Virus record (IMG/VR): IMGVR_UViG_3300010883_000551
Span: 1 to 22,461 of that record
Source of the DNA: a virus
Direction: 5' to 3' (one strand)
DNA: 22,461 nucleotides
The notes beneath the pieces were generated by a model. It was not told where the DNA came from and ran no database searches. It saw only the letters and a program-made list of their open reading frames with translations. Shown piece after piece: positions 5,962 to 9,935 of the stretch. How positions within the stretch are numbered: the first letter of the stretch is position 1; every line of letters begins with the position of its first letter. Made by a program: the position numbers and the translations under genes.

Positions 5962-5990
5962 AAAAAGGCGGCTTGCGCCGCCTTTTTTTT
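5962..5990 (-). terminator. Rho-independent terminator after ssb
   Basis: A perfect 6-bp stem GGCGGC/GCCGCC (5967-5982) closes a four-base loop that reads GCAA on the minus strand, a GNRA-type tetraloop. A run of five T follows the stem in the minus direction (complement of 5962-5966) and eight T follow it in the plus direction (5983-5990), so it could act both ways. It begins right at the ssb stop codon, so it ends the ssb transcript and insulates recA. Confidence 0.93.
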
Positions 5991-6814
5991 TAAATGTCTT
6001 CTAAGTCGGCGAAAGCTTCATCTAAGCTCTTATATTTTTTTGATGAATCATTATCGCTAGATACAGAAGAAGTTGATGTTGTACTAGACTCTGTGCTAGT
6101 CTCTGAAAGGTCACTACTGGTTCCGCCTCTTGAGGTGTAATTGTCAGAAGTCTCTTCAGTGTCACCAGATAACCAGCTATTTACAATATTTTCAAGCTCT
6201 TCATATGATTTAAGGGAGTACATATCGTCGAGTGATGGAATTGAGCTAATCCAAGAAGAAGCAGTATCTGTATTGTCAGACAAAACGCTGCTTTTTCCTC
6301 GAGGACGTACGTCAGTAGATGCCCACATTCGTCCAGGTGCTTTAGTGCACACAACCTTCACGTCTCGGCCTTCGAGAGGATCTGTGATATCTCCATAATC
6401 TTCATCGAGCATAATATTCAAAAGTGTTTGATACACAGTTTTTCCAAATGCCCATACACGAATCCCCTTATCCTCTTCGCCCCGAACAAGAACAGGAGCA
6501 TAAACTCTCATCTTTGGGTAAAGTTTCTTAGCAAGATCGTACGATTCCTTAGAGGCATCTTCACGAAGCTTGTTAATAAGCTCTTGAATAGGATCAGGCT
6601 TTCCAAACTGATGTGGTGCTAAAAGACCGGGATTGTCCCCGATATTATAATAGAACCACCTCTCTTTAAAAGGTTGCCCATCATTGTCTGGGAATGAAAG
6701 AAGTCTAACTGTTGCTTCTTCACCTTCTTGTGGACGCCACATCGTGTTCCTTTTAGATGTTGCCCCAGAAAGTTTATTAAGTTTTGCGCGAATTGCGTCT
6801 AAGTCAAGTGCCAT
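5990..6814 (-). CDS. Single-stranded DNA binding protein, T4 gp32-like, without zinc cysteines
   Basis: It is predicted to coat single-stranded DNA at forks and recombination intermediates. The 274 residues have a gp32-like layout. A basic N-terminus (about 1-26) is followed by an OB-type core (about 27-170) with WRPQEGEEATVRLLSFP, WFYYNIG, the strand VYAPVLV and then GIRVWAFGKTVYQTLLNIM. The core is followed by a Ser/Thr/Asp-rich linker (about 215-258) and a short acidic tip SLDEAFADLEDI suited to partner binding. The Cys/His zinc cluster of T4 gp32 is absent: the only Cys visible is C156. The ATG at 6814 has AAGGAG five bases upstream. A promoter-like sequence, a hairpin and UUUAAA repeats precede it, and a terminator follows directly, so it looks like a separately controlled single-gene unit. 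Confidence 0.88.
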   Translation of the reverse strand: MALDLDAIRAKLNKLSGATSKRNTMWRPQEGEEATVRLLSFPDNDGQPFKERWFYYNIGDNPGLLAPHQFGKPDPIQELINKLREDASKESYDLAKKLYPKMRVYAPVLVRGEEDKGIRVWAFGKTVYQTLLNIMLDEDYGDITDPLEGRDVKVVCTKAPGRMWASTDVRPRGKSSVLSDNTDTASSWISSIPSLDDMYSLKSYEELENIVNSWLSGDTEETSDNYTSRGGTSSDLSETSTESSTTSTSSVSSDNDSSKKYKSLDEAFADLEDI

Positions 6815-6872
6815 TTTATCTCCTTTAAATATTTAAATGTGCAAATGTTTTGGTTACCTAAATAGTTTAGGT
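6815..6872 (-). promoter_or_regulatory. ssb leader with hairpin and UUUAAA repeats, possible autoregulatory operator
   Basis: Read on the minus strand, a perfect 7-bp dyad with a 3-base loop (6856-6872) lies 42-58 bases before the start codon. An A/U-rich, weakly structured stretch follows, with a 14-base palindrome of two UUUAAA units (6824-6837). This runs straight into the AAGGAG ribosome binding site. T4 gene 32 is controlled by gp32 binding an upstream folded nucleation site and then spreading over an A/U-rich leader to the ribosome site, and this layout resembles it. The dyad also overlaps the proposed -10 box, so it could instead be a DNA operator. Confidence 0.45.
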
Positions 6873-6892
6873 CTTTAGTAATAAATGTTCAA
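6864..6892 (-). promoter_or_regulatory. Possible sigma70-like promoter for ssb
   Basis: On the minus strand, TTGAAC (complement of 6887-6892) and TAAACT (complement of 6864-6869) are separated by 17 bases. Each hexamer matches the consensus at four of six positions. The -10 box sits inside the dyad at 6856-6872. A start near 6857 would give a leader of about 43 bases. The same -35 hexamer and spacing recur before the HD-fold gene. Confidence 0.35.
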
Positions 6893-6894
6893 AT

Positions 6895-7356
6895 TTAAGT
6901 TAAGTCATTAGCATTTTGTTGAAGAACTATAAGACTAGAATAAGGTACTTCACTCATGTCTTTTCCGCATATTAAAGTTGCTAAGTCTGGCTTGCCTAGT
7001 TTATATTCTATTTTATACAAAATGCCTGTAGTGTTTTTCTCTTTTGTGTCTTTGTATCTATCTCTTATATAAGATAATACAAAGTCTCCTAGTAATGGCT
7101 TGAGTACTACATTCTCTTCCAGCTTACTCGGATTTAGAAATAGTTTATGACATATGCCTTTTGGGACTGTGTGTGTTTTTTTTAAAGTAGAAAAAGTTGA
7201 TTGGCTTGCGTCTTCGACAATCAAATCACTGTGTCCTACTACTAAAACATTGCATAAACAAACTGTTCCTGCCTTCTTTCCATCTTTTCCTATCTCGCCT
7301 CCGAAAACTGCTACTAAATCTTTAACTTCAAAATGGTGACTTGGGGTGTCACCCAT
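6895..7356 (-). CDS. Unknown protein, possibly a small beta-barrel
   Basis: I do not recognise this 153-residue protein. It is rich in short beta-strand-like segments: FEVKDLVAVFGG (near the start), GTVCLCNVLVVG and SDLIVED. Then come KGICHKLFLNPSKL and GDFVLSYIRDRYKD, where a more helical part begins. The opening V-x-D-L-V-x-V-x-G-G pattern with a nearby Gly-rich turn recalls SH3-like barrels, but this is a guess. I chose the ATG at 7356, which overlaps the end of the preceding gene by 8 bases (ATGGGTGA). A TTG seven codons earlier (7377) is possible but has no ribosome site; the ATG itself has only a weak AGAAG. Its place between the HD-fold gene and ssb hints at a replication-related or early role, nothing more. 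Confidence 0.7.
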   Translation of the reverse strand: MGDTPSHHFEVKDLVAVFGGEIGKDGKKAGTVCLCNVLVVGHSDLIVEDASQSTFSTLKKTHTVPKGICHKLFLNPSKLEENVVLKPLLGDFVLSYIRDRYKDTKEKNTTGILYKIEYKLGKPDLATLICGKDMSEVPYSSLIVLQQNANDLT

Positions 7357-7588
7357 TTTTAGAGTTCTTCTTTTCAACTTTTGAAGATGGAAACTTAGGT
7401 CTTAAATTTCCAGGATAGTTCGCGTTGGAAGCCCCAAGAGGAACAGTAGCACCGGCGACGCCGCCCATTGATATCTCTTTTTCAGGGCGACCTTCTGTTT
7501 CATCAGGCTCAACGAGCAATTCTTCGTCGGTGGATTTTTGTGTTTCTTCTTCTAAAAGAAGCTTTATAAAGAGTCTTAAGGGATGCAT
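7349..7588 (-). CDS. Small unknown protein with amphipathic N-terminal segment
   Basis: This is a 79-residue protein of unknown function. Residues 4-15 (LRLFIKLLLEEE) form an amphipathic helix followed by an acidic linker (about 16-38). A Gly/Ala-rich piece GGVAGATVPLG (42-52) and a basic tail KVEKKNSKNG follow. Small proteins with an LR-x-x-I-type N-terminus and a GA-V/T-PLG piece are, as I recall, common in T4-type and marine myophages, usually unassigned. The ATG at 7588 is 15 bases after the HD-fold stop and in the same frame. AAGGA lies only one base before the ATG, too close for normal use, and both sit in a hairpin. The next Met (M41) would remove the conserved-looking start, so I keep 7588. 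Confidence 0.68.
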   Translation of the reverse strand: MHPLRLFIKLLLEEETQKSTDEELLVEPDETEGRPEKEISMGGVAGATVPLGASNANYPGNLRPKFPSSKVEKKNSKNG

Positions 7589-7608
7589 ATCCTTAAGTAT
7601 CGCTTAAG
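7574..7608 (-). repeat. Cluster of three CTTAAG palindromes forming a hairpin over a start codon
   Basis: CTTAAG occurs at 7574-7579, 7592-7597 and 7603-7608. On the minus strand the second and first copies pair as CTTAAGGAT with ATCC-TTAAG (one bulged base), leaving a 4-base loop AUGC that holds the start codon of the 79-residue gene. A shorter inverted pair, GTATC/GATAC, flanks the third copy at the HD-fold stop codon. The structure could control translation of the downstream gene or be an operator. Confidence 0.5.
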
Positions 7609-8149
7609 ATACACATGTTCTTGCATATTGCACAACTGAAGATAGCAATTGCTTTTGATTTCCGTAATAACGAGACTCTTCTAAGTGTAATCCTTGAGAA
7701 ACTAAAATTGCAGTCCACTCTTCTTGTGTTAGCGATATTCCAAAGTGTTGTAGCAAATATAATGTCCGATGACCCACATTCATCCTGGCACAGTTTTCAT
7801 TAAACTTGTAAGTCTGCCCTAGTTTCTCTCTGTGCCAATCTGAATCTTGATGTATATACATTTCGTGCTCTAAGTCACCTATCCTGCCTAACTCATGTAC
7901 TAAACAGACTTTTACAGCAGACATAGCAATATCTTTACTTGCTAAAGATTTAGCTTTTTGAGCAACTTGAAGTGAAAATTCAATCATTCTACCAGGCTTG
8001 CCTCCCTTTTCTTCTAAGTGAGACAGTGGGCATACAGCCATTCTTTCGCCTAAAGCATCAAACATTTGTTCGATCTTACTAGAATCAAAAACTTTTTTTA
8101 GCAAGCTGAAATACTTTTCGTAATGTTCTAAAATTAAATCGTTATCCAT
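7604..8149 (-). CDS. HD-fold phosphohydrolase-like protein with degenerate active site
   Basis: The 181 residues look like the phage HD-domain family: GGKPGRMIEFSLQV (49-62) takes the place of the usual GG-L-x-EHSL motif. KVCLVHELGRIGDLEHEMYI (80-99) corresponds to FHDIGK-x-GDLE. SDWHREKLGQTYKFNE (103-118), HRTLYLLQHFGISLTQEEW (127-145) and the final YYGNQKQLLSSVVQYA keep the family frame. The metal ligands are changed, though: His of EHSL is Phe (F59), HD is HE (H85-E86), and the late HDG motif is SQG (151-153). So the fold seems kept while metal-dependent hydrolysis is doubtful. Family assignment is from memory of related phage proteins. No ribosome site precedes the ATG at 8149; a promoter-like sequence ends so close that a leaderless message is possible. 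Confidence 0.75.
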   Translation of the reverse strand: MDNDLILEHYEKYFSLLKKVFDSSKIEQMFDALGERMAVCPLSHLEEKGGKPGRMIEFSLQVAQKAKSLASKDIAMSAVKVCLVHELGRIGDLEHEMYIHQDSDWHREKLGQTYKFNENCARMNVGHRTLYLLQHFGISLTQEEWTAILVSQGLHLEESRYYGNQKQLLSSVVQYARTCVS

Positions 8150-8155
8150 ATTAAA

Positions 8156-8184
8156 ATAGTATTAAATTTGACCTAATTGTTCAA
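8156..8184 (-). promoter_or_regulatory. Possible promoter before the HD-fold gene
   Basis: On the minus strand, TTGAAC (complement of 8179-8184) and TACTAT (complement of 8156-8161) are 17 bases apart; each matches the consensus at four of six positions. It lies in the 36-base gap after the upstream gene and has the same -35 hexamer and spacing as the ssb candidate. A start seven bases past the -10 would fall on the A of the ATG. Confidence 0.3.
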
Positions 8185-8738: not shown

Positions 8739-9896
8739 CTAAATATCAAATCCTGTGACTTTTGCTTCAAATTTCCAATCTCCGACCTTTAAAGTAAGAA
8801 TTCTATTTTTTGTAAGAGTATCGGATGTTTTTTTGTCGCAGTCAACAATTAACGCGTCGTGTATAATGTATAGCGGAATTGCCCCTTCTTTATTATGCTT
8901 GCACCACTCAGAAAATGCTAATATAGATATCTCAGCTGCTGAGCTTTGAAGAAAATAGCTTATCAAAAGTCTTTGATCATTTTCTGGAAGGAAAATTGGT
9001 CTTCCTAAAACATTTCTTAAGTTACTGTTTCTTTGACTGTTTTTCAAAATGCTTTCTAGATTATAGACATCAAAAAATTGCTTTGTTTCTCTAATGATAA
9101 CTCTAGGACTAATAGAATCAGGGAGCGATTTTTTTAAATTCTCTGGGGACTGACCATATAATGAACATAAAGTTATTAACTTTGCTTGATCACGAGTAAC
9201 TTTCCCTTCTAAGATTACTTTCGAAATGTGATCATACACATCAGTAATAGAATCTTTTCCCTGCATATGCAAGGCAATTTTGGGCTCTGCTGATATCAGA
9301 TCTATTTGTAAGATTTTTCCGGAAGAAAACGAACTCTTAAAAGCTTTTCTTGATTTACTGGGCAATGTTAAAATTTGGGGCCCAGATGTAACAACTAGAC
9401 GACCGGTTCTGCTTCCTAACATTCCGTACTCTGTTTTTTTAGCTTTTCCGTCTGGTCCAGGCATTAGCTCTAACATTCTTTGTCCTGTAGGAGCATGTGC
9501 TGTTTTTGTGATAATGTCACGTAAAATGAGTTTATCAACAATAGGTGCAGATAGCTTTCTAAGGAATCGCTTCATTTCTAAATAGGAAACAAGGTACTCT
9601 TCGTTCTCCTTGCAACAGAGGACATTCTGGAGTGTTTCTGTTATACTCTGGAAGTGGTTCTTTACCGTTTCTGCAGGAATTGCCCTTATTAGTTCCATTT
9701 CAGACAAACCGAGAATTTTTTTTATGCTACAGTAACTTTCTGGAAAAACCCTGGCATTTGCACCCGTTAGTTTTAAAAAGCCTATACACTCATCATAAAA
9801 CTCATTATCTGAAAGAATTATTGAAGAAGCAGCTGTTGTATCAACAGATGATATCTTTATCTTGTCAAAATTTGATGTCTGTAATTTTACATCCAT
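8739..9896 (-). CDS. Family A DNA polymerase, compact, no exonuclease domain
   Basis: It is predicted to copy DNA 5' to 3'. The 385 residues carry palm/fingers motifs of Pol I-type enzymes: SRTGRLVVTSGPQILTLPS (162-180), motif A QIDLISAEPK (D199, steric-gate Glu E204), motif B RDQAKLITLCSLYG (R235, K239, Y247), LGRPIFLPE (297-305) and motif C IIHDALIVD (H346, D347). Both metal-binding Asp are kept, so activity is plausible. Differences are Phe to Leu in motif B, HDE to HDA in motif C, and Lys where motif A usually ends in Arg. Only about 160 residues precede TGRL, so there is no 3'-5' exonuclease domain. I chose the ATG at 9896; a TTG two codons earlier is possible. Neither has a clear ribosome site. 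It sits between structural genes and small genes rather than beside the helicase. Confidence 0.9.
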   Translation of the reverse strand: MDVKLQTSNFDKIKISSVDTTAASSIILSDNEFYDECIGFLKLTGANARVFPESYCSIKKILGLSEMELIRAIPAETVKNHFQSITETLQNVLCCKENEEYLVSYLEMKRFLRKLSAPIVDKLILRDIITKTAHAPTGQRMLELMPGPDGKAKKTEYGMLGSRTGRLVVTSGPQILTLPSKSRKAFKSSFSSGKILQIDLISAEPKIALHMQGKDSITDVYDHISKVILEGKVTRDQAKLITLCSLYGQSPENLKKSLPDSISPRVIIRETKQFFDVYNLESILKNSQRNSNLRNVLGRPIFLPENDQRLLISYFLQSSAAEISILAFSEWCKHNKEGAIPLYIIHDALIVDCDKKTSDTLTKNRILTLKVGDWKFEAKVTGFDI

Positions 9897-9935
9897 ATAC
9901 AATTAAAACAGTTTACTTGAAAAAGTACAGTATGA

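Follow-up and report, generated by a model that had tools for sequence, protein, structure and literature searches.

Ahead of the gene for a gp32-like single-stranded-DNA-binding protein (SSB), on a 22,461-nucleotide stretch of viral DNA (the window), lies a conserved control region that, judging from sequence comparisons, we read with moderate confidence as a new variety of gp32-type autogenous leader. The clade that carries it is a large group of uncultured, largely marine, T4-like phages. Relatives were collected by scanning IMG/VR with gp32-like queries; five scans were run, and the first four yielded 115 distinct leaders. Promoter conservation, hairpin position, periodicity, gene-specificity among the sampled promoters and the protein fold were computed directly.

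The gp32-like gene and its promoter

The leader belongs to a gp32-family SSB gene. The open reading frame (274 aa, positions 5990-6814, minus strand) matched the profiles PHROG 1192 (E 1.6e-23) and Pfam gp32 PF08804 (E 1.4e-8), and its AlphaFold2 model, built from 24 aligned sequences (mean pLDDT 64.5), had the RB69 and T4 gp32 cores (2a1k, 1gpc) as best Foldseek matches, with E values of about 3e-8 to 1e-7. The C-terminal tail is acidic and the zinc-site cysteines found in the T4 protein are missing: in the clade alignment, residue 156 of the window protein is the only well-conserved cysteine. The gp32-like protein without zinc motif that had originally been predicted is thus borne out by the profile matches, the predicted fold and the cysteine alignment. 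Other genes of this 22-kb virus record encode UvsX-like, DnaB-like helicase, 5'-3' exonuclease, dUTPase and family-A polymerase proteins. The family-A DNA polymerase (387 aa, 8739-9902, minus strand) aligns only to positions 965-1214 of the 1445 positions of phrog_17 and is possibly a split or shortened polymerase.

In a tree of the 115 proteins, the window protein paired with that of L117 (SH-aLRT 99, 85% identity), followed by L001, L147, L011, L153 and L003. The open reading frame upstream of the leader (6895-7377, minus strand) matched nothing in Pfam or PHROG, and the viral-contig scan gave no relative of it, so that it could not yield further leaders.

A gapped position-weight matrix trained on the first leader set converged on TTGAAC, 17 nt and TANNNT, the 17-nt spacer being found in 90% of the training sites. 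In the window, this matrix places a -35 element TTGAAC at 6887-6892 (minus strand) and, 17 nt away, a -10 element TAAACT at 6864-6869 (minus strand), with a score of 18.5 as compared to 4.7 +/- 3.3 in shuffles, 2 of 1000 of which scored as high. The same sigma70-type promoter precedes the gp32-like gene in 85 of the 115 leaders at a score of at least 13.9 (84 at a score of at least 14), counts that are optimistic because the matrix also scored the leaders it was trained on; outside the training set, 29 of 43 leaders scored at least 14. The two hexamers, 17 nt apart, are conserved across the relatives, and TTGAACATTT and TA.A.T are common to the window, L117, L001, L147, L011, L153 and L003, with TA.A.T invariant in the window clade. 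A TTGAAC-type promoter was not found in the distant relatives Mel-JY01 and Flavobacterium phage immuto. The predicted transcription start (+1), set six bases past the -10, falls at 6857 (minus strand) in the window; applied to several sister promoters, this six-base rule lands on the A of the ATG, and in relatives of the gp32-like leader it lands on the first hairpin base. The original prediction had overlooked this promoter, whose -10 lies in the hairpin, as well as a third 8-nt repeat unit.

Promoters of this type also precede other genes. They are found before uvsX, with short leaders, and a pattern search of eight long contigs, in which 20 stretches around matches were inspected, added candidates ahead of tRNA genes, primase-like genes and one epimerase-like gene. 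Some of these matches probably arose by chance, since in several contigs a reversed control pattern matched about as often. Wherever an open reading frame came next, the leaders of the sampled sister promoters were about 0-27 nt long, and the gp32-type hairpin and array were absent at all of them; the long leader is therefore specific to the gp32-like gene among the sampled promoters. That the promoter carries a hairpin to many genes was considered and rejected, the sampled sister promoters having none. Within the window, an HD-like gene (7604-8149, minus strand) has TTGAAC at 8184 in a TTGAAC-17-TACTAT arrangement that puts the predicted +1 at the A of the start codon (ATG, 8149); its message would be leaderless by this prediction, and the same layout occurs in several relatives. 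Likewise, the promoters of the primase-like genes of L341, L345, L347 and L348 are placed for what is predicted to be a leaderless or near-leaderless message. In L337 and L343, a TTGAAC-type promoter stands right before tRNA-like sequences (GGCCTCTAGCTCAA...).

A predicted intrinsic terminator (5962-5987, minus strand) lies just 3' of the gp32-like gene, and 74 of the 115 relatives have a terminator-like site at most 80 nt downstream of the gene. RNA started at the promoter of the gp32-like gene would therefore carry that gene alone. A terminator upstream of the -35 was seen in 4 of 83 relatives and in none of the other 79, and the upstream same-strand open reading frame ends at most 60 nt from the -35 in 71 of 78. 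With so few upstream terminators and an upstream frame that ends near the -35, read-through RNA from upstream genes is possible.

The hairpin in the window and across relatives

A hairpin had been described 42-58 bases before the start codon, and it is present: ACCTAAA-CTA-TTTAGGT, at 6856-6872 on the minus strand (ATG at 6814), forms a perfect 7-bp stem with a 3-nt loop that spans -15 to +2 and overlaps the -10. Taken alone, the window hairpin and the TTTAAA units downstream of it are weak evidence, because a Watson-Crick stem at least as long occurs in 9% of dinucleotide-shuffled 80-nt leaders (40% if G-U pairs are permitted), two TTTAAA occur in 7% of them, and the folding z-score of the leader is -1.87. 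Rfam, at gathering scores, gave no match in the window, and no DNA similarity to the leader region was detected in annotated phages.

The relatives were compared with shuffles in which the promoter hexamers were fixed and the remainder was shuffled, using a hairpin threshold of dG <= -3. Hairpins starting at the predicted +1 were found in 41% of 85 leaders and 37% of 59 cluster representatives, as compared to about 1.3% in shuffles (z 34 and z 28, respectively), and start offsets from -2 to +1 were all enriched. A separate peak was evident at -15, with 12% of the leaders and 14% of the representatives against 0.5-0.7% (z 13 and 17). By threshold, 34 of the 59 representatives fall in class I (hairpin at +1), 10 in class II (hairpin overlapping the -10) and 15 have no hairpin, a division that rests on energy thresholds and the predicted start and admits to class I a few weak, large-loop stems. 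The window is class II; in most relatives the hairpin begins at the predicted +1. The 3' end of the hairpin lies at a median 39 nt from the ATG in class I and 41.5 nt in class II, the -10 at 63 nt and 51.5 nt, respectively. A folded element about 40-67 nt upstream is strong in the clade; in the window it overlaps the promoter, and in L117 it is lost. No pseudoknot partner is evident for the 3-nt loop of the window hairpin, in agreement with the original prediction, and class I loops did no better than shuffles (loop-to-downstream pairing 2.9 vs 3.0).

Class I stems begin with 21 different 5' tetramers, and at positions +1 to +4 each of the four Watson-Crick pair types occurs; because the pairs were selected by pairing, the hairpin statistics rest on the shuffles and not on such counts. 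Across the relatives the stem sequence is free to change, in line with the diverged sequence originally suggested. The dyads overlap the -10 or the start site, a common place for repressors to bind, and they could be DNA operators for a transcription repressor acting at the promoter. We consider this very unlikely: the arm sequences are almost freely different between related phages, and G-U accounts for 17 of the 209 pairs in class I stems, which is not expected of a DNA dyad.

The start of the hairpin is anchored to +1 (SD 1.4 nt) far more tightly than to the ATG (SD 7.4 nt). Such a tie to the 5' end would suit an mRNA stabiliser of the ompA kind, in which a 5'-terminal hairpin protects the 5' end from decay in the message of a protein needed in bulk, the A/U tract does no more than leave the ribosome site accessible and the SSB does not bind its own message. 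Stem-loops at the 5' end are known to stabilise mRNA (Emory et al. 1992, as cited in PMC7509114 and PMC3997798), and T4 gene 32 mRNA is likewise unusually stable (PMC3014915). However, a stabiliser leaves unexplained both the distance of about 40 nt to the ATG in the two classes and the 7-8-nt periodicity of the array (below), and it fails for the hairpins overlapping the -10, which cannot be 5'-terminal. We therefore regard it as unlikely and keep to the autogenous leader.

In the window itself, the hairpin is the weakest part. With the -10 inside it, messages begun at the local promoter would probably lack the hairpin: RNA from the predicted +1 keeps only its last two bases and folds like shuffles (z -0.30). 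L117, the nearest relative, has kept the promoter and the array (AAAACATTTGCACATTTAA) and has no stem; within the window clade only L003 has a comparable stem, and most members are without a strong hairpin. Of promoter, array and hairpin, the hairpin is consequently the least conserved as judged from these alignments, and of the elements originally proposed to be kept in relatives, the array was retained in L117 and the hairpin lost. It may be that the inverted repeat that forms the window hairpin around the -10 arose by chance and that promoter and array alone are functional, a reading in line with the stem's absence from L117 and most of the clade and with the 9% of shuffles that form an equally long stem. 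We take this seriously, while holding it to be somewhat less than evenly probable, because hairpins at exactly -15 are enriched (14% of representatives vs 0.5%, z 17) and because pairing between the -10 region and the start of the RNA also exceeds expectation, occurring in 12 of 59 leaders of the window's clade (1.7 expected) and 14 of 45 cyanophage gp32 leaders (2.9 expected).

In the window's clade, the start segment also pairs with downstream sequence in 31 of 59 leaders (2.5 expected). The simplest account of the -10 pairing would be that it lets read-through messages retain a hairpin suitably spaced from the AUG. In L149, L063, L034 and the cyanophage S-MbCM7 (L451), the start segment can pair with either the -10 or the downstream sequence, in mutually exclusive hairpins. 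L356, a gp32-like locus (61% identity) among bacterial MAG contigs, has TATAAT, six bases, and then GTTAC-TTCG-GTAAC.

The repeat array

Downstream of the hairpin, an A/U-rich array of three 8-nt units, ACATTTGC ACATTTAA ATATTTAA, occupies 6825-6848 (minus strand) and is followed by AGGAG (to 6820). The two UUUAAA units that had been described between 6824 and 6837 as leading into AAGGAG are confirmed: TTTAAA is present at 6824-6829 and 6832-6837, and AAGGAG at 6825-6820, all on the minus strand. The Shine-Dalgarno AGGAG (6820-6824, minus strand), recognised from its sequence, abuts the 3' end of the array. No second copy of the array motif was found in the window with up to 3 mismatches.

Across the leaders, self-matching within bases -46 to -13 peaked at 7 nt (z 11.8) and 8 nt (z 9.1), and also at 14-16 nt, relative to dinucleotide shuffles; a period of 7 or 8 was the best one in 53 of 59 leaders, about 14 being expected from shuffles. 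The 34 nt preceding the -35 had no 7-8-nt periodicity peak. The shared array sequence owes part to common ancestry. Shared ancestry as the sole source of the periodicity was rejected, as the signal was reduced and still present among 14 leaders mutually less than 65% identical (period 7, z 5.3; 11 of 14 best at 7 or 8). L023 has a near-exact direct repeat as the array of its gp32-like gene, an 8-nt unit (CTAACAAA) occurring about four times.

An unstructured A/U-rich repeat runs into the ribosome site, with a unit of 7-8 nt, unlike the 5-nt UUAAA of T4. T4 gp32 occludes 7 nt (PMC10484735), and the period of the array matches this footprint. Since the repeat of the T4 leader itself has a period of 5, the agreement is suggestive only and may be a coincidence.

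Proposed mechanism and comparison with known systems

From these observations, we infer promoter use, protein binding, repression and read-through as follows. The sigma70-type promoter would start a short transcript bearing the gp32-like gene alone, with a bipartite leader, in which a hairpin whose 3' end is about 40 nt from the AUG is followed by the A/U-rich 7-8-nt repeat into the Shine-Dalgarno. When single-stranded DNA is saturated, surplus SSB would nucleate at or beside the hairpin, spread cooperatively over the repeats with about one monomer per unit and cover the ribosome site, like T4 gp32. In most relatives, each message from the gp32 promoter would open with the hairpin. In the window, only read-through RNA would contain it, and messages from the local promoter would retain the repeat array alone. 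It is tempting to go further and propose that the phased 7-8-nt array sets the register of the SSB filament on the RNA, and that the RNA-start segment can take either of two partners, the -10 region if the RNA reads through from upstream and downstream sequence if it is initiated at the promoter, so that the two kinds of message respond differently, an arrangement that would recur in cyanophages. This extension is speculative and, in our estimate, rather improbable as a whole.

In most relatives, the hairpin resembles ompA-type stem-loops in standing where the message is predicted to begin. The window hairpin differs: it is not 5'-terminal, its first base lying 15 nt ahead of the predicted +1. 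We know of no repeat array as a part of ompA-type elements.

Kyanoviridae (cyanophage) gp32 leaders are related in layout. They have a sigma70-type promoter with a 17-nt spacer and, in some, a hairpin over the -10 or from +1: the cyanophages S-RIM2, S-CAM8, S-H25, S-RIM8, P-RSM3 and S-MbCM7 show TTGAC(A/C/G)-17-TACGAT/TATCCT/TATGAT with a dyad over the -10, and in the named Kyanoviridae phages the hairpin ends about 24-42 nt before the ATG. In L446, L447, L448, L449, L451 and L457, the -10 region of the cyanophage gp32 promoter is complementary to the predicted message start. Among 45 cyanophage representatives, start-to-downstream pairing was found in 7 (1.8 expected), beside the 14 with -10-to-start pairing. 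Unlike the present leaders, those of Kyanoviridae are shorter and A/C-rich, with a weaker period of about 9, and many have no hairpin. No published description of cyanophage or present-clade gp32 leaders was found in the literature searched, which was mostly without subscription papers.

Closer to T4, RB69 gp32 represses itself via a diverged leader with a similar folded structure (PMC535899, PMC3014915), and the RB49 leader has UUAA repeats and no evident pseudoknot, repression being untested in that paper (PMC535899). Both are coliphages near T4, unlike the present clade. In T4 itself, gp32 nucleates at a 5' pseudoknot and spreads across UUAAA repeats to the ribosome site (PMC535899, PMC3014915). 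The original prediction of this architecture holds across relatives, in which a zinc-free gp32 fold is encoded next, the hairpin 3' end lies about 39 nt from the AUG and an A/U repeat runs to the Shine-Dalgarno; it is not borne out in detail, the window hairpin sitting on the -10 and the repeat being of 7-8 nt and not 5-nt UUAAA. The T4 gene 32 operator shares the gp32-fold protein encoded next, a folded element whose stem (GCTATGA/TCATAGC) ends 39 nt before the AUG, as counted by hand, and the unstructured A/U-rich repeat into the ribosome site (PMC535899, PMC3014915). It differs in having a pseudoknot where the present leaders have a simple hairpin with no loop partner, a repeat of 5 nt (UUAAA) instead of 7-8 nt, messages cut by RNase E at -71 whereas here the promoter is directly at or inside the hairpin, and a protein with a zinc site. 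The basis on which T4 gp32 distinguishes its mRNA from other nucleic acids has been called unclear, and self-regulation in T4 relatives without a pseudoknot has been left open (PMC535899). With more than 100 natural leaders, freely varying stems and a footprint-matching repeat, both questions, own-message recognition and pseudoknot-less autoregulation, become testable.
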